Source of the DNA: Gemmatimonadota bacterium
GTDB taxonomy: Bacteria > Gemmatimonadota > Gemmatimonadetes > Longimicrobiales > Gaopeijiaceae
Direction of reading: 5' to 3'
Assembly: GCA_022823225.1 (NCBI GenBank)
Contig: JAJDXM010000092.1
Span: 1 to 64,000 of the forward strand
Length of the DNA: 64,000 nucleotides
Every line of letters begins with the position of its first letter. Within the stretch, counting starts at the first letter, position 1. Below are positions 29,930-45,153 of the stretch, in pieces. Under the pieces are notes generated by a model. The model did no database searches, had not been told where the DNA came from, and was given only the letters and a program-made list of their open reading frames with translations. The position numbers and the translations under genes are program-made.

Positions 29930-29980
29930 GCCGCAAAACTGGACAATTGATCTGACCAGTCATATTATGTGTCCAACTTT
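29930..29980 (+). promoter_or_regulatory. Candidate operator of the VapBC-type pair
   Basis: TGGACA at 29940-29945 and TGTCCA at 29970-29975 face each other across 24 bases; with flanks the arms match at 9 of 11 positions (AAAACTGGACA against TGTCCAACTTT). The spacer is AT-rich and includes TATTAT. It lies just ahead of the antitoxin gene, where autoregulation by the antitoxin complex would be expected. Binding is inferred. Confidence 0.45.
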
Positions 29981-29997
29981 TGAAAGGGACTGGATCC

Positions 29998-30255
29998 ATG
30001 AAAACAGCGCCCACGCCCGGCGGGAATACCGCCCGGCCCCGGAGGATCGGTGCGGCACGGTTCAAGGCGCAGTGTCTGGCACTCCTGGACCGGCTCGGTC
30101 CTGACGGGTTGGTGATCACCAAGCACGGAAAGCCGGTAGCGCGGGTGCTACCCTATGATCAGGACCCGGCCAGTCTGATCGGGAGCCTGCGGCACGAACT
30201 CAAGATCAGGGGAGACATCATGTCGACCGGGATTCGCTGGGACGCGGAGCGCTAG
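29998..30255 (+). CDS. Phd/VapB-type antitoxin
   Basis: An 85-aa protein from ATG 29998. 'IGAARFKAQCLALLDRL...GLVITKHGKPVARVLPY' is the Phd/YefM-type DNA-binding half: helix, 'VITKHGKPVA-V'. The tail 'IGSLRHELKIRGDI' should bind the toxin. Sixteen bases separate it from the PIN toxin gene, so both are on one transcript. A TTG at 29980 would add six residues but has no better ribosome site. Confidence 0.85.
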   Translation: MKTAPTPGGNTARPRRIGAARFKAQCLALLDRLGPDGLVITKHGKPVARVLPYDQDPASLIGSLRHELKIRGDIMSTGIRWDAER

Positions 30256-30271
30256 GCGGCCCGTGGAATAG

Positions 30272-30649
30272 ATGCTGAACCTCGACACGCAAATCCTGAT
30301 CTGTGCCCTTCGCGGCGAACTGCGCACGAAAGAGCGCCAGCTGCTCGAACGCAACCAGTGGTCCGTCTCAGACATCGTCTTTTGGGAGATTGCGAAGCTG
30401 GTGCAACTGGGCCGGATCGAGCTGGACCTCGATGACCGGCGAGTGGTGCGCACACTGAGCCGCATCCAGTCGTGGCCGATCGACCTGGCCGTGGCCCGCG
30501 CCTCGACCGCGCTGGACTTCCGGGGCGATCCGGCCGACGAGATCATCGCGGCGACCAGCGTGGTTCACCGGATCCCGCTGCTGACCAGGGACTCGGCGAT
30601 CCTGAGGTCGGGCCTCGTTCCGCTGGCTGCCCGGCGGGCCGTGGAATAG
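30272..30649 (+). CDS. PIN-domain toxin (VapC-like)
   Basis: A 125-aa PIN ribonuclease. Active-site acids are D5 ('MLNLDTQIL'), E39 ('VFWEIAKL'), and the pair in 'GDPADEIIAATS' and 'LLTRDSAIL'. Such toxins cut tRNA or rRNA and are held inactive by the antitoxin encoded just upstream. It is of the same fold as the toxin at 4551-5012 but of a different subgroup (short loop, 'YDTHxx'-type N-terminus). Confidence 0.88.
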   Translation: MLNLDTQILICALRGELRTKERQLLERNQWSVSDIVFWEIAKLVQLGRIELDLDDRRVVRTLSRIQSWPIDLAVARASTALDFRGDPADEIIAATSVVHRIPLLTRDSAILRSGLVPLAARRAVE

Positions 30650-34441: not shown

Positions 34442-35065
34442 TCAGAACCGGAACGAGGCATCGGGCGCGACGCGACCGGCCGCCTCCCCTGCCGCGGTAA
34501 ACACCGTCAGGTCTACCTGCACCACGTCGGGCAGGATGTCCGCGAACCGCAGGCTCGCCGGTCCGATGGGCTCGCCGGAACAGGTGAGGGAGGCGAGGAG
34601 GTGCACTTCTTCGTGTTGGGTGCCCTCGTCCTCGTGAGCGTGCTGGTCCTCGCCGGCATGGTCATCTTCCATACCTTCGGGCGCCTCCACCTCCGCCGAA
34701 TCCAGCGCACAGGTCACCCCGTCCGGAAAGGCAAGGAGACGCGCGCCACCGGTTCGGAGTCTGTCGATGGCCTCCGCTACGGTGGCCCGCTCCTCGGCCG
34801 AGCGGGGGGCGTGTTCGAAGCCGAAAACGGATTCTGCGGGGAGTTGCAGATCGACGGTGAGGCGGGTGCCGTCCACGGCCAGGCCCAATCGAGCGATGCC
34901 GTGTTCGTGGGCCCCAGCCGTCCCCAGTCGTTCGCCCTCGACCAGGGGAGGATCAGGACGCGCGGAGGATGATTCGCCGCATGCGACGAACAGCAGAAGA
35001 CACGGAATCGTCCACCCGACGGAAGGGGAGCGGACCTGGGGTCGATCGAGTGTAGGGAAGCTCAT
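34442..35065 (-). CDS. DUF2796 zinc-binding lipoprotein (ZrgA-like)
   Basis: A 207-aa protein; ATG 35065 gives a lipoprotein signal with lipobox 'LLLFVACG'. DUF2796 features are 'GAHEHGIARLGLAVDGTRLTVDLQLPAESVFGFEHAP' in pattern, the His/Glu-rich loop 'HAGEDQHAHEDE' and the ending 'FTAAGEAAGRV'. Members such as ZrgA bind zinc in the periplasm and aid zinc uptake. Divergent from the DUF3299 gene, with a Zur-like AT-rich site between, which supports zinc regulation. Confidence 0.87.
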   Translation of the reverse strand: MSFPTLDRPQVRSPSVGWTIPCLLLFVACGESSSARPDPPLVEGERLGTAGAHEHGIARLGLAVDGTRLTVDLQLPAESVFGFEHAPRSAEERATVAEAIDRLRTGGARLLAFPDGVTCALDSAEVEAPEGMEDDHAGEDQHAHEDEGTQHEEVHLLASLTCSGEPIGPASLRFADILPDVVQVDLTVFTAAGEAAGRVAPDASFRF

Positions 35066-35117
35066 GGTGACCGAACCGGTTGGGGTTCCGTGCGTCCAGT
35101 ACAAATGCAGGTACATG

Positions 35118-35140
35118 AATGATAGTGTATTCTCGTTATT
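35118..35140. promoter_or_regulatory. Candidate Zur box between DUF2796 and DUF3299 genes
   Basis: AATGATAGTGTATTCTCG plus TTATT is the only AT-rich stretch in the 113-base divergent region. AATGATA at 35118-35124 equals the half-site found, inverted, in the stronger box at 36228-36252. The other half is degenerate. It could control both genes. Moderate support only. Confidence 0.4.
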
Positions 35141-35178
35141 ATTGCCTGGTTCCCCCGAAGGGCGAGGATTCCCGTCAA

Positions 35179-35703
35179 ATGCCAAAGCCACGCTGCCGAT
35201 TTCCGATTTCCTGGACACCCCTCCAATTCGCCCTGGTCATCATCGGCGGCTGGCTTGCGCTCACGTCGGGCCCCCGCTCCGTCCTGGTCGATCCGGGCGA
35301 TGGAGCGAGGATCCGCGCGTCCAGTGTCCCGCGGGACTCCATTGAGGTGGATTGGCAGATGCTGGCCGCCCTGGATTACCGGACGGGCGAGATGTCACAG
35401 GAACTCGAGTCGGTCGTGGGGCGAGAAGTGAGAGTGCCCGGATACATGGTCCCCCTGGAGGACTGGGCCGGCGAGGTCTCGGAGTTCCTCCTGGTCCCGT
35501 ACGTTGGGGCCTGCGTGCACACCCCGCCCCCGCCCCCCAACCAATTGGTCTACGTCAGGATGGAGAACGGTCAACGCGTGCCGGTCTCCTTCTGGAATCC
35601 CGTCTGGATCCACGGCACCCTGACCGTGGAGACGACGACGAACCTGTACGGATCGGTGTCCTTCAAGATGGCTGGCACCTCGATTGCACCCTACGAGTGG
35701 TGA
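35179..35703 (+). CDS. DUF3299 protein, exported
   Basis: A 174-aa protein starting at ATG 35179, with an N-terminal hydrophobic segment ('PLQFALVIIGGWLALTS') that is a signal anchor. The DUF3299 core reads 'VVGREVRVPGYMVPLEDWAGEVSEFLLVPYVGACVHTPPPPPNQLVYV' in pattern: conserved Cys and His in 'GACVHTPPPPPNQ' may bind metal. DUF3299 genes often sit with zinc-uptake genes, as here between DUF2796 and Zur. Exact role unknown. Confidence 0.88.
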   Translation: MPKPRCRFPISWTPLQFALVIIGGWLALTSGPRSVLVDPGDGARIRASSVPRDSIEVDWQMLAALDYRTGEMSQELESVVGREVRVPGYMVPLEDWAGEVSEFLLVPYVGACVHTPPPPPNQLVYVRMENGQRVPVSFWNPVWIHGTLTVETTTNLYGSVSFKMAGTSIAPYEW

Positions 35704-35779
35704 CGAGGCGCAGCCCTGCCGAGGCCTGCCGGTGTTATCGTCCTGTCACGGAACGTGTCCATCCCTCGCCCCTGATTCG

Positions 35780-36148
35780 ATGCAACGAGACACTCCTCAA
35801 CGCCGGGCGATCCGCCGCGTATTCATAAGCACCGGGCGCCCTCTCACCTGTGAAGAGGTCCTCCGGTACGGCCAACAGATCGTGCCGTCACTCGGAGTGG
35901 CGACCGTCTACCGGAACGTTAAGATGCTGGCTGGAGAAGGGTGGCTGTCGGAAGTCGAGCTCCCGGGCGGCGGGCTTCGGTACGAGTTGGCCGACCTGCC
36001 GCATCACCACCATTTCCTGTGCCGCTCCTGTGATCAGGCGTTTGACGTCCATCAGTGCCCGGACGAAGTCGAGTCGCTGGCGCCCGACGGCTTTGAGGTT
36101 GACAGCCACGAGCTGATCCTCTTCGGTCGCTGCGCGGCGTGTACGTGA
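35780..36148 (+). CDS. zur: Fur family regulator, probably Zur
   Basis: A 122-aa Fur-family metalloregulator. ATG 35780 begins the winged helix 'TPQRRAIRRVFISTGRPLTCEEVL...VPSLGVATVYRNVKMLAGEGWL'. Metal sites are visible: 'LPHHHHFLCRSC' and 'HQCPDEVE' for the regulatory site and C-terminal 'GRCAACT' completing a CxxC pair of structural zinc cysteines. Its setting among zinc-uptake genes points to Zur rather than Fur. It should repress the boxes at 36228 and perhaps 35118 when zinc is plentiful. Confidence 0.85.
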   Translation: MQRDTPQRRAIRRVFISTGRPLTCEEVLRYGQQIVPSLGVATVYRNVKMLAGEGWLSEVELPGGGLRYELADLPHHHHFLCRSCDQAFDVHQCPDEVESLAPDGFEVDSHELILFGRCAACT

Positions 36149-36227
36149 CGGGCCTCCCTGGTCCAGCCGCTCCCCACGGCGGCCTGGTGGCACCGTCGCC
36201 GAGGTCGTGGACCCCTCTTCCTTGACC

Positions 36228-36252
36228 GTTATTGATAAATTATTATCATTAC
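36228..36252. promoter_or_regulatory. Zur/Fur box ahead of the TonB receptor gene
   Basis: GTTATTGATAAATTATTATCATTAC (given as its parts GTTATTGATAAATT and ATTATCATTAC) is a strongly AT-rich palindrome with arms TGATAA and TTATCA, close to the Fur/Zur consensus TGATAAT-N-ATTATCA. It lies 62 bases before the receptor start in otherwise GC-rich DNA. Zur from the adjacent gene is the natural ligand. Confidence 0.75.
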
Positions 36253-36313
36253 GATCCAGGCACTCGCCGGTCCACTGTCGCGCCGCTGACGGCGCCCCCA
36301 GCAGGAGACAATC

Positions 36314-38569
36314 ATGCCACCCGGTATTCCCATAGCGATATCCAGGCGCTTTACCGTCCACTCTTTCCTCCTCGGGATGATCCTCGCAGGCGTTCCGGCA
36401 CCCTCCGCCGCGGCCTCGACACCTCTTGAGCAGCAGGCCGCGGAATCCATCGACTATGTAGCGGGAATCGTCCGGTCGGCAGACAGCGGGACGCCTCTCG
36501 CGGGCGCGATGGTGGTGGTCGTCAGCACGGGCGGCGGCGCAATCACGCACGGTGACGGGTCGTTCCGTATCGCCGTGCCGGATACGGAGCGGTATCGACT
36601 CCGGATCGATCGCCTCGGGTACGCGGCGGTTGCAGTCGATGTCCGTGCGGGCGAGATGGCCGCTGTCGATCTCGAGGTGGCCGCCGTCCCGTTGCCGAAC
36701 GTGGTCGTCACGGCGGTCCTGAGTCCCACGGCCGCCAACGAGACGATCCGGCCTTCCTCCGTTTTCGCGCAGGAGAAGCTGCAGCGGCAATTGGCGGGAA
36801 CCGTTGCGCAGACGGTTGCATCGGTTCCGGGGGTGTCTGTGACCAGCATGGGGCCGGGCACCTCCCAGCCGGTCATCCGCGGCCTGGGCGGAGACAGGAT
36901 CCTCATGCTCGAAGACGGCCAGCGGGTGGGTGACGTCGTCAACAGCGGCGCGGACCACGCCACGGCGCTCTCCCCTTCCTCGGCCCGGCGGATCGACGTG
37001 ATTCGGGGACCAAGCGCGATTCTCTACGGTAGCAGCGCACTGGGCGGGGTGATCAACGTGGTTCGGGACGAGGTGCCCCTCGCGGTGCCGTACCGCGCGA
37101 CCGGCTTCACCTCGCTCCAGACGGAGACGGCGACTCGGGCCATCGGGGGGAGCAGCCAGTTGACGGTCCGAGTCACCGAGCGCGTCCCTCTTCGCGTCGA
37201 GGTATCGAGACACGAGGGGGGAGACTTGCGAACGCCCATCGGGACGCTTGCCGGAACCCAGACCGACACGTGGGGCGTGTCCGGCGGGACATCGTGGGTG
37301 GACGACTGGGGCTACGCGGGCGGTTCGTTTCGCTTCTACTCGAACGACTACGGAATCCCGGGAGGCTTCCTCGGCGGCCACACGAACCCGGTGCGCACGG
37401 AGCAGGAGAGAGCCGCAGGTCGATTCCGCAGCGTCATCCGGCCCGGGCGAGGCTTCGAGGCGATTGAACTTGATGCCGGCTACACGTGGTACCGGCACAA
37501 CGAGTGGGAACCCCCGGACATCCTCGGAACGCTGTTCGAGCGGCAGATCGCGAGCGGAGAGGCGCGGGTGCGGCACGCCGGGTGGGGGCCGTTCGCGTCG
37601 GGCGCCGTCGGAGCGAGGGTCTCGTGGGAGCAATTCGGATTCGGGGGCGCGCTGTACTCCCCGAATACCCGGCGCACGACGCAGGCCGCGTATGTCCTTG
37701 AGGAGATCCAGCTCGATCCGGTCCTGATCGAGGCCGGGCTCCGCTACGATCGGGTCAACCTGGAACCGCACAGGGAAGAGATGTCCGACATCGGGCACAT
37801 CCGCGCACGTTCCTTTGGCGCGATCTCGGGATCGCTGGGCGCACTTCTGCGGTTGACGGGGCAGTTCACCGTGGGAGCAAGCGTGGCTCGGGCCTTTCGC
37901 ACCCCGGATGTACACGAACTCTACTCGGAGGGGCCGCACCTCGCGGCCAATTCATTCGACGTTGGCAATCCCTCGCTCGAGACGGAATCGGGACTCGGAA
38001 TCGACGTGTTCGGACGTTTCACAAGGCAACGACTGAGTGCGGAGGTGACGTGGTTTCGAAACACGATCGCGGGCTACATCTTTCCGGAGGCGACCGGCAA
38101 GCTCAGCCGTGTACTGCTCCCCATCTATCAGTACGTGGGCGAGGACGCACTTCTGACCGGCTTCGAGAGCCTGCTCGGGTGGTCGATGCCCGCGGGGTTC
38201 ACGCTGGAGGCCGCCACGTCTTACGTGCAGGGCACGATCCGCGCCACAGACGAACCTCTCCCGTTCATGCCCCCGCTCCAGGGCCGCCTTGCGATCGGCT
38301 ATTCGCCGGTGGACTGGTTCGTGGAGGCCGAGGCGCGGATGGCCGGGAGCCAGGAACGGACCGGGCGGTTCGAGGAACCTACCGATGGATACGCGGTCCT
38401 TGGCCTCTCGGGCGGTGTGCGTCTCACTGTCGCCGGGCGACTGCACGTCGTGACCCTCCACCTCGACAACATCGGCGATACCGTATACCGCAACCACCTC
38501 TCCCGCGTGAAGGAGATCATGCCCGAGGCCGGAAGGGGCCTGGGTGCTACCTACCGGGTCGTGTTCTAG
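36314..38569 (+). CDS. TonB-dependent receptor, ZnuD-like
   Basis: A 751-aa outer-membrane receptor. After a signal peptide (to 'PSAAAS') there is a carboxypeptidase-regulatory-like domain (about 48-125), a plug with 'VIRGLGGDRILMLEDGQR', 'HATALSPSSARRIDVIRGPSAILYGSSALGG', in pattern, and a 22-strand barrel ending in '..YRVVF' with terminal Phe. 'YSEGPHLAANSFDVGNPSLETE' is the block typical of ZnuD zinc receptors. With the Zur box in front it most likely imports zinc or a zinc chelate across the outer membrane, energised by TonB. Confidence 0.9.
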   Translation: MPPGIPIAISRRFTVHSFLLGMILAGVPAPSAAASTPLEQQAAESIDYVAGIVRSADSGTPLAGAMVVVVSTGGGAITHGDGSFRIAVPDTERYRLRIDRLGYAAVAVDVRAGEMAAVDLEVAAVPLPNVVVTAVLSPTAANETIRPSSVFAQEKLQRQLAGTVAQTVASVPGVSVTSMGPGTSQPVIRGLGGDRILMLEDGQRVGDVVNSGADHATALSPSSARRIDVIRGPSAILYGSSALGGVINVVRDEVPLAVPYRATGFTSLQTETATRAIGGSSQLTVRVTERVPLRVEVSRHEGGDLRTPIGTLAGTQTDTWGVSGGTSWVDDWGYAGGSFRFYSNDYGIPGGFLGGHTNPVRTEQERAAGRFRSVIRPGRGFEAIELDAGYTWYRHNEWEPPDILGTLFERQIASGEARVRHAGWGPFASGAVGARVSWEQFGFGGALYSPNTRRTTQAAYVLEEIQLDPVLIEAGLRYDRVNLEPHREEMSDIGHIRARSFGAISGSLGALLRLTGQFTVGASVARAFRTPDVHELYSEGPHLAANSFDVGNPSLETESGLGIDVFGRFTRQRLSAEVTWFRNTIAGYIFPEATGKLSRVLLPIYQYVGEDALLTGFESLLGWSMPAGFTLEAATSYVQGTIRATDEPLPFMPPLQGRLAIGYSPVDWFVEAEARMAGSQERTGRFEEPTDGYAVLGLSGGVRLTVAGRLHVVTLHLDNIGDTVYRNHLSRVKEIMPEAGRGLGATYRVVF

Positions 38570-38617
38570 CGAGCCTGCGCACGACTCACCACCTGCTGAA
38601 CTGCAAGGAGACATGAA

Positions 38618-39091
38618 ATGAAGAGATGGAGCTACGGAAACCGGCCGTTCGCGGTCCTTGCCGCCTTCGCCCTGGTCCTCGCGGCCTGCGATTCGACGAC
38701 CGAGCCGGAGGAAGAGCACTACGAACCCGAAGGTGTGGAGCTCGTGATGGGTGGCCAGGTCATCGCGTCGTACGACGGCGACACACAGCGCTGGACCGGG
38801 GAACTCGAGGTCGATGTCGGTGAAGAGACGCCGCACATCTCGGTCCGCTTCGTGGATCACGACGGCGACCCGATCCCGTTGGGAGACGACACATACCTGG
38901 AAGTCGAAATCGAAGACGAGTCGATCGCCGAGTTCGAGCAGGACACTCCCGGGGAGTTCGGGGGCCACCTGCACGGCCACATGGAAGGCGATACCGACGT
39001 GACGTTCATGCTCATGCACGGCGCGGTCGGATCGGGACACGCCGACTTCGTGACACAGCCTGTGCACGCGCACGTGCACGAGCACGGCTAG
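38618..39091 (+). CDS. His-rich lipoprotein next to zinc receptor
   Basis: A 157-aa protein with lipobox 'LVLAACDS'. After an acidic linker (TEPEEEHYEPE) it forms a beta-rich domain with 'ISVRFVDHDGDPIPL'. His clusters 'GGHLHGHMEGD' and the tail 'HAHVHEHG' are obvious metal-binding candidates. It follows the receptor gene by 48 bases. It is probably a periplasmic or surface zinc-binding chaperone; I do not know a named family. Confidence 0.8.
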   Translation: MKRWSYGNRPFAVLAAFALVLAACDSTTEPEEEHYEPEGVELVMGGQVIASYDGDTQRWTGELEVDVGEETPHISVRFVDHDGDPIPLGDDTYLEVEIEDESIAEFEQDTPGEFGGHLHGHMEGDTDVTFMLMHGAVGSGHADFVTQPVHAHVHEHG

Positions 39092-39160
39092 GCGACTGCT
39101 GGCGACTGCCGCGCAACGGCGAGTGCTCCTCAGCGGACGCGAAACGGTTCGGGCGAGCCG

Positions 39161-40288
39161 ATGACGAATGGAACCGGGTCAGTCGACATTGTCATTGTCG
39201 GCGCCGGGGCGGCGGGTCTCGGCTTCGGGGTGACGCTGCGCCATCTGGGAATCGAGAACTTTGCGATCCTCGACCGCGCCGCCGTCGGTGCCTCATTCCT
39301 GCGCTGGCCCCGACAAACGCGCTTCATCACGCCGTCGTTCGCCAGCAATCAGTTCGGCCAGCTGGACCTGAACGCCGTCTGTCTGGAAACTTCGCCGGCC
39401 TACTCGATCGGCGTCGAGCACCCCACAGGGAAGGAGTACGCCGCTTATCTGCAGGCGGTGGCGAAGCATTTCGAGTTGCCGGTAACGACCGGGATCGACG
39501 TTCTCTCGATCGCGAGGAAGGCGCCGCACCAGCGCTTTCGGCTGGAGACGAATCGCGGCGACATCCGTGCGCGTTTCGTGGTATGGGCGGGCGGCGAAAT
39601 GCAGTATCCGCGGACCTGCGGCTTCCAAGGCGCCGAGCTTTGCCTGCACTACTCCCGGGTGACCTCATGGGACGATCTCGCCGGCGGCGAAAGATGCATC
39701 ATCGGCGGTGCCGAGAGCGGTGTCGACGCCGCCATCGCGCTAGCCCACGCGGGTCGGCGAGCCGTCGTCTTCGACCGCGAGGAGCCGTGGAATCGAAAAG
39801 GCTCGGACCCCAGCCAACTCCTGTCACCGTTTTCGCGGGCGCGCCTGCACTCGGCCGTTGAATCGGGTCGGGTGACGTTGTGCGGCGGCAGTGTCGTCAC
39901 CGGCGTTCGCCGCAACGGCAACGGCTATCAGTTGGCGCTTGAAGACGGCGAAGTCTTCGACTCCGCCGATGAGCCGATCCTGGCCACCGGATTCGTTGGT
40001 TCGGCAAGCCTCGTTCGCACGTTGTTCGATTGGCGAGATGAAGACTTTCCGTTGCTGACGGAGAACGACGAGTCCACGGTGACGAGAGGGCTCTTCCTGG
40101 TCGGGCCGCAGGTGCGCCAGGGCAATCTCGTCTTCTGCTTCATCTACAAGTTCCGCCAACGCTTCGCCGTGGTAGCCAACCAGATCGCCCGCCGCCTGCG
40201 AGTGAGCACGGACCCGCTGAAGTGGTACCGCCGCCACGGGATGTACCTCGACGATCTGTCCTGCTGCGAAGATGCCTGCGCCTGTTGA
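39161..40288 (+). CDS. FAD/NAD(P)-binding flavoprotein with Cys-rich tail
   Basis: A 375-aa flavoprotein of the FAD-dependent monooxygenase-like type. The N-terminal dinucleotide motif is 'IVIVGAGAAGLGFGVTL'; a second Rossmann motif is 'CIIGGAESGVDAAIALAHAG'. The C-terminus is unusual: 'DLSCCEDACAC', five cysteines in the last nine residues, fit for metal or Fe-S binding. Its TGA overlaps a TTG start of the permease gene, so the products are likely made together. A reductase feeding a metal-transport step is possible but inferred. Confidence 0.82.
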   Translation: MTNGTGSVDIVIVGAGAAGLGFGVTLRHLGIENFAILDRAAVGASFLRWPRQTRFITPSFASNQFGQLDLNAVCLETSPAYSIGVEHPTGKEYAAYLQAVAKHFELPVTTGIDVLSIARKAPHQRFRLETNRGDIRARFVVWAGGEMQYPRTCGFQGAELCLHYSRVTSWDDLAGGERCIIGGAESGVDAAIALAHAGRRAVVFDREEPWNRKGSDPSQLLSPFSRARLHSAVESGRVTLCGGSVVTGVRRNGNGYQLALEDGEVFDSADEPILATGFVGSASLVRTLFDWRDEDFPLLTENDESTVTRGLFLVGPQVRQGNLVFCFIYKFRQRFAVVANQIARRLRVSTDPLKWYRRHGMYLDDLSCCEDACAC

Positions 40289-41394
40289 CCGGGTCCGCCC
40301 TTAGCAGCCCTTGGCCACGGGCTGCCAGGCCTTTCTGGGCGCTGCTGCTGTTGCTGACGCCCGCATTGGTCGCGGTTGGCGCCGCCAACCGTCTCGCGGA
40401 TCGAATCGACCCCTGGGTCCGAGCCCGGACCGAGCCGCTGACCGGGTTGCTGACGAGCTGGCCGCAGCCGTTTGCGGAAATTCTGGCCGGCGACTACGGC
40501 TTTGTCACGATGGGGCCGCTGCTGCTGGTCTGGGCGACTCCGGTCGTCGTGCTCCATGCGCTGCTGATGGGCGCGTACAGGTCAAGCGGCCTGCTCGACC
40601 GCCTCACAACCGCCATGAATCCGTGGCTGCGTCCGTTCGGCATGACGGGCCGCGAGGTGGCGCGGGTCGTGATGGGTTTCGGCTGCAACGTCCCCGCCGT
40701 CATCAGCGCACAAACCTCGCCGGCCTGCTCGCGTGGCGCATGCGTTTCGGCCATTGCCTTCGGCTCGGCCTGTTCGTATCAGCTGGGAGCCACGCTGGCG
40801 GTCTTCGCCGTGGCGGGACGAACCGGGCTGGTCGTGGCCTACCTGCTGTTCCTTGGCGCTACGACAGTCGCCTATGCCCGCCTGACCGCGCCGCGAGCGG
40901 CTCGCTCCCCCTTCATTGTGCTTTCGACGGAGGCCCCGGTCATATTGACCTGGCCGCGCCCGAGGGCCGTCTGGCTGGAGGCGCAAGGCGTTGTTTCGGA
41001 GTTCTTTCGCAGGGCCTTGCCGGTCTTCCTTCTAATCACGGCCGCGGCGTCCCTGTTGAATTGGCTGGGCGCGCTGCAAGCCGCGTCGACCGTCGTCGAG
41101 CCGGCAATGGCCATCTTTCGATTGCCCCCGGAAGCGGCCACGGCGGTGGTCCTCGCGAGCGTGCGCAAGGACGGCATCCTGTTGCTGGCGGAGCCGGGAG
41201 TCGCCGCAAGCCTCAGCGCCGTCCAGCTGTTGACGGCCGTCTACCTGGCCGGCGTGCTGCTGCCTTGCCTGGTCACCTGCCTGACGATTGCGCGCGAGCA
41301 GGGCCGGGCTTTCGCGCTGCGGTTGGTGGGTCGGCAGGCTCTGGCGGCCACCGGTTTCAGCGCTTTGCTGGCCTGGGGCGGAGCATGGCTGTGA
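40285..41394 (+). CDS. FeoB-core-like/nucleoside-recognition permease without GTPase domain
   Basis: A 369-aa membrane protein with about eight to ten hydrophobic segments. It carries the two Gate-type motifs of FeoB: 'GFGCNVPAV' at residues 131-139 (C134) and 'GSACSYQLGA' from residue 160 (C163). The N-terminal G domain of FeoB is missing. TTG at 40285 gives a 4-base overlap with the flavoprotein stop; a GTG at 40222 would give a longer overlap. Set in a Zur-controlled region without ABC transporter genes, it may move zinc or another divalent metal over the inner membrane. Annotation as 'nucleoside recognition domain' is equally usual. Confidence 0.8.
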   Translation: MTGSALSSPWPRAARPFWALLLLLTPALVAVGAANRLADRIDPWVRARTEPLTGLLTSWPQPFAEILAGDYGFVTMGPLLLVWATPVVVLHALLMGAYRSSGLLDRLTTAMNPWLRPFGMTGREVARVVMGFGCNVPAVISAQTSPACSRGACVSAIAFGSACSYQLGATLAVFAVAGRTGLVVAYLLFLGATTVAYARLTAPRAARSPFIVLSTEAPVILTWPRPRAVWLEAQGVVSEFFRRALPVFLLITAAASLLNWLGALQAASTVVEPAMAIFRLPPEAATAVVLASVRKDGILLLAEPGVAASLSAVQLLTAVYLAGVLLPCLVTCLTIAREQGRAFALRLVGRQALAATGFSALLAWGGAWL

Positions 41395-41987
41395 GTTCGA
41401 TCTCAGGCCCCTGCCGACGCAAGGGGCAGGAACTGTTGCACCGGCAGTGCTGGAACTGGGGCCGGGACATCGTGCGCCCGGAGGGCAACCTTCTGCTCGA
41501 AGCGGGCTTCCTCAAACAGCGGCCACCCAAGGGCGAAACGGGGTCGAGCTGCTACACGCTCGCGCTGCCCCACGGCGACAGCCTCATGTTGTGGGGTTTC
41601 GGGCTCCTGTACGGAACGCCGCAGAAGGGTGGCGTCTACCTCAACCGCTACCGGTTTCGAACCGTCTGGCTCCCGTCGGAGAAGATCCAGGGGCCGATCT
41701 GGAAGCCCGGCATGATCCCGACCGAACAGGCGCCTCCGTCGCTCCGCATACCGGTCGACCTGACCGTCGCTGCCATTCGGCGCGTCGCGGACTACGAGGA
41801 GTGGATTCTCGCGCATTGCGGTCCGGAGTATCGTCACGCCGTCCTGCGCGAATGGAACCGGCCTTCCGGGCAACTGCCGCCGGAGGCGCTTCCCCAGGCC
41901 TGGCGCACGCTCGCCGACGCCATCGACTGCCAACCGCATCCCGCGCCCATGGAGGAATCGAGTTCGGCGACCCACGCCTTCCCGTGA
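41385..41987 (+). CDS. Hypothetical protein coupled to the FeoB-like permease
   Basis: A 200-aa soluble protein starting at ATG 41385, behind GGAG, and overlapping the permease end by 10 bases. It is rich in Trp, Tyr and Pro: 'QCWNWGRDI', 'LMLWGFGLLYGTPQKGGVYLNRYRF', 'ADYEEWILAHCGPEYR'. No signal peptide, membrane segment or known catalytic motif is seen. I do not recognise the family. The overlap implies a fixed partnership with the permease, perhaps in place of the missing GTPase domain. Confidence 0.75.
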   Translation: MAVSSISGPCRRKGQELLHRQCWNWGRDIVRPEGNLLLEAGFLKQRPPKGETGSSCYTLALPHGDSLMLWGFGLLYGTPQKGGVYLNRYRFRTVWLPSEKIQGPIWKPGMIPTEQAPPSLRIPVDLTVAAIRRVADYEEWILAHCGPEYRHAVLREWNRPSGQLPPEALPQAWRTLADAIDCQPHPAPMEESSSATHAFP

Positions 41988-42036
41988 CCTCGTTCGCCAC
42001 GGCGACGCCGAGCCCCCCCTTGACCCTGACGTTACG

Positions 42037-45000
42037 TCAGCCTTTCCCCGCCTCCCCGCCCAGCCCCCGCGCCTTCCACAGGTAGAACGCCACCGGGAAC
42101 AGCAGCAGCACGACCGCGCCCGAAGTCACCACGCCCCCCACCAGCGGCGCCGCAATGCGCTTCATCACGTCGGCGCCCGCTCCCGCGCTCCACATGATGG
42201 GCAGCAGGCCGAAGACGTCGGTCGCGATCGTCATCATGATCGGGCGGACGCGCTGGACGGAGCCGCGCCGGATCGCGTGCATGAGCGCGGCACGGTCGGT
42301 GAGAAGGCCGCGGTCGGCGTAGTCCTTGACCGATGAGTTGAGGTAGAGCAGGAAGACGATCGCGGTCTCGGCGTAGAGGCCGGCCAGCGCGATGATCCCC
42401 ACCCAGACCGCGATGCTCAGGTCGTAGTCCAGGATGTGCAGCAGCCAGAACGAGCCGGCGACCGCGAAGGGGACGCCGAGGAGCACCATGGCCGTCTCCG
42501 TGACGGACCGGGTGGTCAGCTGGATGAGGACGAAGATCAGCAGCAGCGTCAGCGGGACCACATACATCAGGCGCCCCTGCGCGCGCTCCAGGTACTCGTA
42601 TTGCCCACTCCACGAAAGCGTGTAACCGGGGGGCAGTGCGACCCCGGCCGCGACCGCTTCGCGCGCGGCCTCCACGTAGCTGCCGATGTCGATGTCGCGG
42701 ATGTCGATGTAGACCCAGGCGTTCGGCTTCGCACCTTCGCTCTTGATGCTGGGCGGGCCGATCACGTACTCCATGCTGGCCAGGCGCCCGAGCGGCACCT
42801 GGTGCCCTTCCGGGGTCGCGACCAGGACCGACCTCAGCGCGGGGAGATCGTCGCGCAGCTCACGGCTGTAGCGCAGGTTGACCGGGTAGCGCTCGAGCCC
42901 CTCCACCGTGGTCGTCACGTTCATGCCGCCGATCGCGGTCTGGATGACCTCCTGGACATCGCGCACGGTCAGGCCGTGCCGCGCGATCGCTTCGCGGTCG
43001 ATCGCGAAGTCGAGGTAGTTGCCACCCATGACCCGGTCCGCGTAGACGCTGGCGGTGCCCGGAACGTCCCGCACGACGGCCTCCACCTCGCGCCCCAGCC
43101 GTTCCAGTTCGGCGAGATCGGGCCCCGCGATCTTGATCCCCACCGGCGTGCGGATCCCGGTCGAGAGCATGTCGATGCGGCTCCGGATCGGCATGGTCCA
43201 GGCGTTCGTGAGCCCAGGAATGCGCAGCGCCGCGTCGAGCTCCTGGATCAGCCTGTCCGGCGTCATTCCGGACCGCCACTCGCTGCGCGGCCTGAGCGCG
43301 ATCGTGGTCTCGATCATCGACAGCGGTGCGGGATCCGTGGCCGAATCCGCGCGCCCCACCTTCCCGAAGACGTGCTGCACCTCCGGGAAGGTGTAGATGA
43401 TGCGGTCCGTCTGCTGCAGGATCTCGCGTGCTTCGGTGATCGAGACGCCCGGCAGCGTCGTGGGCATGTAGAGCAGGTCGCCCTCCCACAGCGGCGGCAT
43501 GAACTCGGAGCCCAAGCGGGACAGGGGCACGATCGTCGTGGCGAGCGCGGCAACCGCGGCGACAATCACCCACCGGCGGAAACGCAGGACGAACCCCAGC
43601 ACCGGCCAGTACGCCCCGGCCAGCAATCGCCCGACCGGCGTCCTGCCCGCGGGCCGGACCTTCCCCCGCACCCAGTAGCCCACCAGCACCGGCACCAGGG
43701 TGACGGAGAGCAGCGCCGCGGCCGCCATCGCGTACGTCTTCGTGAACGCAAGCGGCTTGAAGAGCCGTCCCTCCTGCGCCTCCAGGGTGAACACCGGCAT
43801 GAACGACACCGTGATCACCAGCAGCGCGAAGAAGAGCGACGGGCCGACCTCCCTCGCCGCGCGCGCGATGATCTCCCAGTGCGGCCTCTTTCCCCCGTCC
43901 TGCGCGAGGTGCTTGTGCGCGTTCTCGACCATCACGATCCCGGCGTCGACCATCGTCCCGATCGCCACCGCGATTCCCCCCAGCGACATGATGTTGAGGG
44001 TGAGCCCCTGGATCCGCACCACGATCATCGCCAGCAGGATCCCCACCGGCAGCGCGATCACGGCCACCAGTCCGCTGCGCAGGTGGAAAAGGAAGACCAG
44101 GCACACCAGTCCCACGATCAGCAGCTGCTGGAAGAGGCTGGTGCGAATGCTCCCCACGGCGCGGTCGATCAGCGAGGTGCGGTCGTACGCGACTTCGATC
44201 TCGACCCCCTCGGGCAGTCCCGGCCCGATCTCGTCCAGGCGGGCGCGCACATCCCGGATCACCCGCCGCGTGTCCGCGCCCGGCCGCACCACGACGATCC
44301 CGCCGACCGTCTCCCCCTCCCCGTTCCACTCCGCCAGCCCGCGGCGGCTTTCCGGCCCCAGCGTCACGCGCGCCACGTCCTCCACAAGGATCGGCGTCCC
44401 GTCCGGGCCCACGCCTAGCCCGATCCGGCGGATGTCGTCCACCGACCGGATGTACCCGAGCCCGCGGATCATGAACTCCTTCTCGCCGACTTCGATCAGG
44501 CCGCCCCCCACGTCGCTGTTGCTCTCCCGGATCGCGGTTCGGATCGCCGAGATCGGAAGCCCGTAGGCGCGCAGACGGTTCGGGTCGACGGTGACCTGGT
44601 ACTGGCGCACGAAGCCCCCGACGCTGGCGACTTCCGAAACGCCCGGGATCGCCGTCAGCTCGTACTTCAGGAACCAGTCCTGGATCGAGCGCAGTTCGCC
44701 GAGGTCGTGGCGGTCCGATCTGAGCGCGTACATGTAGGCCCAGCCGACGCCGGTGGCGTCCGGGCCGAGCTCCGGCGTCACTCCCGGCGGGAGCTGCCCC
44801 GCGATGGAGCTAAGGTACTCGAGGACGCGGCTCCTGGCCCAGTACAGGTCCGTCCCATCCTCGAAGATGACATAGACGAACGACACGCCGAAGAACGAGT
44901 AGCCGCGCACCACCTGCGCGAAGGGCGCCGCCAGCATCTGGGTGGTGAGGGGATAGGTGACCTGGTCCTCGACGATGCGCGGGGCCTGGCCGGGGTATTC

Positions 45001-45153
45001 CGTCTGGATGATGACCTGGACGTCGGAGAGGTCGGGGATCGCGTCGATGGGCGTGCGCGTGAGGGAGAAGGTGCCCGCGACGACGATCGCCACGGTGCCG
45101 AGCACGACCAGGAGCCGGTTCCTGATCGACCAGTCGATGATGCGCGCGAACAT
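42037..45153 (-). CDS. cusA: Heavy-metal RND efflux permease (CusA type)
   Basis: A 1038-aa RND pump of the heavy-metal family. Blocks: N-terminal 'MFARIIDWSIRNRLLVVLG', 'TPIDAIPDLSDVQVIIQTEYPGQAP' in pattern, 'GTMVDAGIVMVENAHKHL' with the proton-relay Asp, and 'GLLPIMWSAGAGADVMKRIAAP'. These match CusA-like Cu(I)/Ag(I) pumps better than CzcA. It forms the inner-membrane part of a tripartite pump driven by the proton gradient. Preceded by GGAGG; it follows the adaptor gene by 12 bases. Confidence 0.93.
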   Translation of the reverse strand: MFARIIDWSIRNRLLVVLGTVAIVVAGTFSLTRTPIDAIPDLSDVQVIIQTEYPGQAPRIVEDQVTYPLTTQMLAAPFAQVVRGYSFFGVSFVYVIFEDGTDLYWARSRVLEYLSSIAGQLPPGVTPELGPDATGVGWAYMYALRSDRHDLGELRSIQDWFLKYELTAIPGVSEVASVGGFVRQYQVTVDPNRLRAYGLPISAIRTAIRESNSDVGGGLIEVGEKEFMIRGLGYIRSVDDIRRIGLGVGPDGTPILVEDVARVTLGPESRRGLAEWNGEGETVGGIVVVRPGADTRRVIRDVRARLDEIGPGLPEGVEIEVAYDRTSLIDRAVGSIRTSLFQQLLIVGLVCLVFLFHLRSGLVAVIALPVGILLAMIVVRIQGLTLNIMSLGGIAVAIGTMVDAGIVMVENAHKHLAQDGGKRPHWEIIARAAREVGPSLFFALLVITVSFMPVFTLEAQEGRLFKPLAFTKTYAMAAAALLSVTLVPVLVGYWVRGKVRPAGRTPVGRLLAGAYWPVLGFVLRFRRWVIVAAVAALATTIVPLSRLGSEFMPPLWEGDLLYMPTTLPGVSITEAREILQQTDRIIYTFPEVQHVFGKVGRADSATDPAPLSMIETTIALRPRSEWRSGMTPDRLIQELDAALRIPGLTNAWTMPIRSRIDMLSTGIRTPVGIKIAGPDLAELERLGREVEAVVRDVPGTASVYADRVMGGNYLDFAIDREAIARHGLTVRDVQEVIQTAIGGMNVTTTVEGLERYPVNLRYSRELRDDLPALRSVLVATPEGHQVPLGRLASMEYVIGPPSIKSEGAKPNAWVYIDIRDIDIGSYVEAAREAVAAGVALPPGYTLSWSGQYEYLERAQGRLMYVVPLTLLLIFVLIQLTTRSVTETAMVLLGVPFAVAGSFWLLHILDYDLSIAVWVGIIALAGLYAETAIVFLLYLNSSVKDYADRGLLTDRAALMHAIRRGSVQRVRPIMMTIATDVFGLLPIMWSAGAGADVMKRIAAPLVGGVVTSGAVVLLLFPVAFYLWKARGLGGEAGKG

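Follow-up and report, generated by a model that had tools for sequence, protein, structure and literature searches.

We analyzed a 64,000-nucleotide stretch of DNA from a Gemmatimonadota bacterium (GenBank assembly GCA_022823225.1, contig JAJDXM010000092.1, positions 1 to 64,000; hereafter, the window), which is part of a 4.19-Mb genome that is 96% complete and has Gemmatimonadota metagenome-assembled genomes as its closely related kin. A gene island at positions 34442–41987 ends in a trio of genes encoding a flavoprotein, a FeoB-like permease lacking a G domain, and a 200-residue protein (P200). The trio very probably has a role in zinc starvation. Together with a TonB-dependent receptor and a His-rich lipoprotein encoded upstream, it would form a zinc uptake unit repressed by Zur, a reading to which we assign a probability of roughly 0.58, and the permease itself probably carries zinc inward. 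The trio is a strong candidate for a new, apparently undescribed, route of zinc uptake or mobilization.

Organization of the putative zinc uptake unit

The receptor (36314..38569, plus strand) was ZnuD-like, with ZnuD as its top NCBIfam model (3.9e-54), against which it scored 184 bits with a cut-off of 950. It is followed on the same strand by the His-rich lipoprotein (38618..39091), which matched no known family and is kept beside the receptor in relatives, and by the flavoprotein (39161..40288), a flavin adenine dinucleotide (FAD)/nicotinamide adenine dinucleotide (phosphate) (NAD(P)) oxidoreductase (Pyr_redox_3, 8.3e-93) with a C-terminal CCxxxCxC motif. The permease (40285..41394, plus strand) consists of a FeoB-superfamily core with two Gate repeats (Pfam Gate, 1.4e-16), and P200 (41385..41987, plus strand) represents a cross-phylum family that is in no family library, with no sequence match in Pfam, NCBIfam or PDB. 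A preliminary description of this DNA had listed these island genes and their overlaps, a permease with both Gate motifs and no G domain, and an unrecognized 200-residue protein, and each point was confirmed by the coordinates and the Pfam and NCBIfam searches. The receptor and lipoprotein genes are separated by about 50 bases and the lipoprotein and flavoprotein genes by about 70; the flavoprotein and permease genes overlap by 4 bases and the permease and P200 genes by 10, consistent with the called starts. Given these short gaps and overlaps, a single transcript from the receptor to P200 is likely.

The FUR-family regulator encoded upstream of the receptor (35738..36148, plus strand; Pfam FUR, 6.5e-20), the subtype of which NCBIfam leaves unresolved, was taken as Zur from its gene context. 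Between the regulator and the receptor lies the Zur/Fur-type operator TGATAAATTATTATCA (36233-36248), a perfect TGATAA-N4-TTATCA and the sole match to this pattern at up to 2 mismatches in the 64-kb window, where 0.05 are expected.

Linkage to zinc-starvation genes across phyla

The flavoprotein and permease genes recurred in Enterobacteria, Bacillota, Cyanobacteriota, Chloroflexota, Planctomycetota, Acidobacteriota and haloarchaea. Their neighbors across phyla were COG0523/ZigA GTPases, FUR-family regulators, ZnuABC, and paralogs of CysS, HisI, FolE2, DksA, ThrS, S14 and L33, the paralogs being known zinc-free or zinc-sparing replacements. On plasmids of Klebsiella, Pantoea, Paenibacillus, Haloferax and Acaryochloris, the pair lay amid genes such as those for ZigA/COG0523, Fur-family regulators, CysS, HisI, FolE2, DksA, S14 or L33. 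The pLVPK island was flagged as Zur-regulated by Haas et al., 2009 (PMC2770081), the main text of which makes no mention of FeoB, flavoproteins or nucleoside-recognition protein.

In 80 flavoprotein loci of a species collection, the best-scoring 80 of at least 483, a zinc marker was found within 5 kb in 54, the permease in 40 and P200 in 25. The permease was the commonest immediate downstream neighbor of the flavoprotein (35/80), and P200 always lay within 5 kb of a permease or COG0523 gene. Moreover, a zinc marker was present in 26 of the 27 loci that span 20 kb or more, compared with 0 of 20 random 20-kb stretches, which were taken from Gemmatimonadota only. Because of this control and the choice of the best-scoring loci, the counts apply to the closer members of the family. 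The preliminary description had raised the case of a trio that usually occurs away from zinc genes; the opposite was seen.

Candidate Zur operators

In Gemmatimonadota in which the trio is detached from the receptor, an exact box of its own was found about 100 bp (L038, L041) or about 300 bp (L009) upstream of the flavoprotein gene, and in locus L040 an exact box lies about 120 bp upstream of a lone P200 gene. Upstream regions in Alkalihalobacillus and Paenibacillus carried Bacillus-type Zur boxes with 0-2 mismatches to the generally known Bacillus consensus. Fur/Zur-type sites were present upstream of the flavoprotein in several cyanobacteria, not in all. In Klebsiella and Pantoea, gamma-type Zur boxes were located 20-25 bp upstream of the flavoprotein, with 1-2 mismatches to the gamma-proteobacterial consensus GAAATGTTATA-N-TATAACATTTC (PMC4219657). 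The enterobacterial and Bacillus-type boxes are of the zinc type. Zur operators that have been verified in Corynebacterium glutamicum (TAATGATAACGGTTATCATTT; PMC2823685) closely resemble the Gemmatimonadota boxes, with a spacer one base shorter. These candidate operators suggest that the trio belongs to the Zur regulon, and the link to zinc and Zur put forward in the preliminary description holds across phyla, with upstream boxes in Enterobacteria, Bacillota, Cyanobacteriota and Gemmatimonadota.

The FeoB-like permease

Most permease homologues carry a FeoB-like N-terminal GTPase domain; in Klebsiella, Pantoea, Paenibacillus, Haloferax and cyanobacteria they have a length of about 550 residues and an N-terminal G domain of the FeoB_N type. 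The permease core is marked by the signature GxGCN, CSYQ and RKD, which was invariant in 32-37 sequences. In a tree of the core, the G-less label required three changes: a Gemmatimonadota group and a Vicinamibacterales relative, all G-less, are placed around two Bryobacterales sequences with a G domain, and G-less Bacillaceae form a separate group. This placement indicates that lack of the G domain is the derived condition and that it arose on at least two occasions. In the Alkalihalobacillus-type Bacillaceae (L107, L133, L150), several COG0523 genes come after the independently G-less permease gene, and Zur boxes of the Bacillus type lie close by.

The predicted structure of the window permease had a predicted local distance difference test score (pLDDT) of 90.3. 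A Foldseek search with this model returned concentrative nucleoside transporters (CNTs) as the sole matches at probability 1.00 (vcCNT, CNTnw), with template modeling (TM) scores of 0.48-0.54 and E values of 1e-3 to 5e-2. CNTs are ion-driven elevators. This match points to a likeness of fold, not to family membership.

The flavoprotein

The window flavoprotein ends in CCEDACAC, and the four cysteines of CCxxxCxC were invariant in 12 diverse homologues; some family members have one extra residue within the motif. The family is spread over many phyla. A plasmid search returned 538 records, 499 of them from Klebsiella, and the Klebsiella form of the flavoprotein–permease pair was present in 52 of 5426 complete E. 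coli genomes (~1%). On an Enterococcus plasmid (L216) that carries the flavoprotein, the search seeds recognized neither the permease nor a zinc marker nearby. In Paracoccus (L077:6847-9056), the flavoprotein gene overlaps a COG0523 gene near AztABCD, with no permease. An obligate role as permease subunit was ruled out by the frequent pairing of the flavoprotein with COG0523 alone.

P200

Zinc clusters of Chloroflexota, Planctomycetota and Gemmatimonadota contain relatives of P200 at 24-37% identity, and those of Acidobacteriota contain closer relatives; searches of plasmids and phages gave no match. W23, G26, D28, G34, N35, L37, Y57, R88, E138 and R150 were invariant in 34 sequences. Since these include no Cys or His, P200 is probably not a metal carrier itself. 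The preliminary description had also proposed the flavoprotein or P200 as a substitute for the GTPase. This idea failed: P200 coexists with complete G domains (L095, L096, L099, L102, L114, L117/L044, L121 and L130) and is therefore not a GTPase replacement, and both proteins occur with COG0523 where no permease is present.

The P200 model was confident (pLDDT 91.6) and found no clear match in the PDB (best Foldseek E value 0.33; best VIA Z score 5.2) and nothing convincing in BFVD; this lack of a clear PDB match is no proof of a new fold. P200 was also seen in other surroundings. In G020 (L012:171-1453) it follows and overlaps a DUF169 gene (PF02596), with neither permease nor flavoprotein, as does a fragment in G259 (L042:6510-7315). 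At L013:16202-19706 it directly precedes a siderophore-type TonB receptor and a small lipoprotein, with no permease. In Planctomycetota (L124, L137, L155, L159), two different P200 paralogs stand in tandem beside COG0523 and the flavoprotein.

History of the window copy

The flavoproteins of Bryobacterales and Vicinamibacterales are 77-79% identical to that of the window, and the gene order there is flavoprotein, permease, P200, COG0523. In the window, the very end of P200 holds the remnant IEFGDPRLPVT (41957..41989, plus strand), a decayed start of the COG0523/ZigA gene that matches IELNDPRLPVTVLSGFLGAGKTT of L095-L097; the ancestral stop of P200 has been lost and about 8 residues have been added. 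Longer COG0523 remnants were seen in L008/L093. Judged from these comparisons, the window lineage has lost both the permease G domain and the COG0523 gene.

The synonymous divergence of the trio was low across families of Gemmatimonadota, and recent horizontal transfer is therefore probable. The cassette was 77-79% identical between Acidobacteriota (L095, L096, L097) and Gemmatimonadota metagenome-assembled genomes. By a simple pairwise method, the median ratio of nonsynonymous to synonymous substitution rates (dN/dS) was about 0.25-0.26 for the permease, compared with about 0.4 for the flavoprotein and P200, and the trio genes had no internal stops in the relatives compared.

Other candidate zinc importers and neighboring genes

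The ZnuB/ABC-3 permease (PF00950) was found in 0 of 23 genomes of the genus, compared with 13 of 14 control genomes, and ZIP (PF02535) in 1 of the 23. Neither was present in the genome of the window, so the statement of the preliminary description that no ZnuABC-type or ZIP transporter is present holds for the whole genome. The island begins with a ZrgA-family zinc-binding lipoprotein (34442..35053, minus strand; PF10986, formerly DUF2796; Pfam 5.6e-34), one of two ZrgA genes in the genome, and a DUF3299 protein (35158..35703, plus strand; Pfam 1e-33), a relative of ZrgE/PA4066 by its position in Zrg systems.

Directly adjoining the island is a gene for an AcrB-family resistance-nodulation-division (RND) exporter that looks CusA/CzcA-like (42037-45153, minus strand); a similar exporter lies near ZrgA and FUR genes in L190. 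Positions 29980-30649 encode a pair of a Phd/YefM-like antitoxin and a PIN-domain toxin.

Proposed mechanism

We infer zinc as the substrate, import as its direction, and a part for the flavoprotein and P200, the roles of these two proteins being conjecture. The genes from the receptor to P200 would be one unit that Zur represses and zinc starvation induces. Zinc would enter the periplasm by way of the receptor, together with ZrgA and the His-rich lipoprotein, and the permease would carry Zn2+, or a divalent ion much like it, through the inner membrane; its predicted CNT-type elevator fold would in principle require no nucleotide. On the cytoplasmic side, the flavoprotein may use NAD(P)H and FAD to hold its four-cysteine tail or partner thiols reduced, and the reduced tail may take the incoming metal and hand it on, with P200 as a possible soluble partner of the metal-handling step.

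A broader proposal is more tentative. It is plausible, though somewhat less likely than not, that the permeases form a hitherto undescribed cross-domain family of FeoB-type zinc importers working with a flavoprotein whose thiol tail receives zinc on the cytoplasmic side, that P200, with a new fold, assists in some phyla, and that the G-less permeases of this lineage and of some Bacillaceae are secondary transporters.

Alternative explanations

Several observations weigh against the proposed uptake unit. Contig 43 of the same genome encodes a DUF3299 protein, an ATPase and a MacB/FtsX-type permease; these are ZrgBC-like and match the ZrgBC architecture of the zinc ATP-binding cassette (ABC) transporter ZrgABCDE of Vibrio cholerae (PMC9820375). 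Given these genes, Zrg can explain part or all of zinc import, with the trio as an additional device. In addition, the trio is found in just part of the genus, whereas ZnuB is missing throughout, and the trio is therefore not the genus's sole zinc importer. Moreover, the Gemmatimonadota and cyanobacterial boxes alone cannot tell Zur from Fur, and in genome G006 the permease is cut to 75 residues and P200 is gone, with the zinc genes remaining. Finally, the flavoprotein lies beside COG0523 without the permease in many Gemmatimonadota and Planctomycetota loci and in Paracoccus, and P200 likewise often occurs with COG0523 and no permease. Of the importer of a new type proposed in the preliminary description, the zinc link and the FeoB-related subfamily thus stand, and its place as a substitute for other importers is weakened by the Zrg genes. 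That description had also considered another importer under the same Zur; a Zrg-type importer does lie elsewhere in the genome, but no Zur-type box at up to 2 mismatches was found by its genes.

The pairing with COG0523, the constant company of P200 with either the permease or COG0523, and the ZrgBC-like genes all suit the most serious rival, in which the flavoprotein, P200 and COG0523 make up a cytosolic redox/metallochaperone device through which zinc is freed or re-allocated during starvation, the permease is optional, and import is by the Zrg ABC transporter, formed by the island's ZrgA and the ZrgBC-like genes of contig 43. We consider this explanation unlikely, as the gene directly downstream of the flavoprotein is most often the permease, and as the window lineage has dropped COG0523 and kept the permease, on which purifying selection is stronger than on the other two trio members.

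It is improbable that the window trio is a decaying remainder of an operon of flavoprotein, G-domain permease, P200 and COG0523 that now does little. The missing G domain, the COG0523 remnant, the lost P200 stop and a sister genome that has lost more would fit such decay; however, the reading frames are open, dN/dS is well below 1, the operator is retained, and G-less permeases exist and persist in the Alkalihalobacillus-type Bacillaceae. Slightly less probable still is that the trio moves another metal (iron, cobalt or manganese) that spares or replaces zinc and is Zur-induced in zinc shortage: the permease is akin to FeoB, PMC11340326 describes cobalt as able to replace some zinc in starved bacteria, and some phyla have Fur-like boxes, but the genes are linked to zinc-free paralogs and ZnuABC, and motifs unlike those of FeoB sit in the conserved permease core.

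Significance and comparison with known systems

If the uptake unit is real, FeoB-type permeases would extend beyond iron (or manganese), with a separate widespread branch for zinc under Zur that is present on Klebsiella plasmids and in some E. coli. It would add an inner-membrane zinc route to ZnuABC, Zrg, ZIP and NRAMP and explain how lineages lacking these obtain their zinc, assign a function to the flavoprotein family with the solved structure 3D1C, and provide natural G-less permeases for probing the purpose of the FeoB GTPase. No description of the trio with Zur or zinc starvation was found in open-access PubMed Central text, with supplements and subscription journals outside the search. 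With the permease, a known superfamily gains a new branch in a new setting, and P200 makes up an undescribed family; the flavoprotein family is already known as a structure and from automatic annotation.

The flavoprotein is homologous over its full length to 3D1C of S. aureus (5.5e-76; residues 10-375 to 7-369), which shares the four-cysteine tail (CCEVSCTC) and is named merely "putative flavin-containing monooxygenase" in structural genomics; no open-access paper linking 3D1C to zinc was found. The bacillithiol disulfide reductase YpdA/Bdr is of the same fold class, with a weak sequence match (77.1 bits against an NCBIfam cut-off of 339.9), and its model stops short of the four-cysteine tail. 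The COG0523/ZigA zinc metallochaperone GTPases (PMC2770081) are regular cross-phylum neighbors of the flavoprotein, permease and P200 genes; an intact zinc-type COG0523 gene is absent from the genome of the window, which has the remnant after P200 instead. With the Zrg system of Vibrio cholerae, the island shares ZrgA and the DUF3299 protein, whereas the ZrgB/ZrgC-like genes lie outside it, on another contig.

FeoB (TIGR00437/PF02421 with PF07670) has the two Gate repeats and the GFGCNVP motif in common with the window permease, which matched the TIGR00437 feoB model weakly (1.1e-18, 67 bits, cut-off 315.65). FeoB carries an N-terminal G domain, which the window permease lacks, and E. coli FeoB reads GFGCN, CGAR and AKE at the positions of the core signature. 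These comparisons support the assignment of the permease to a distinct FeoB-related subfamily, the neighbors of which, unlike those of FeoB, are zinc genes.

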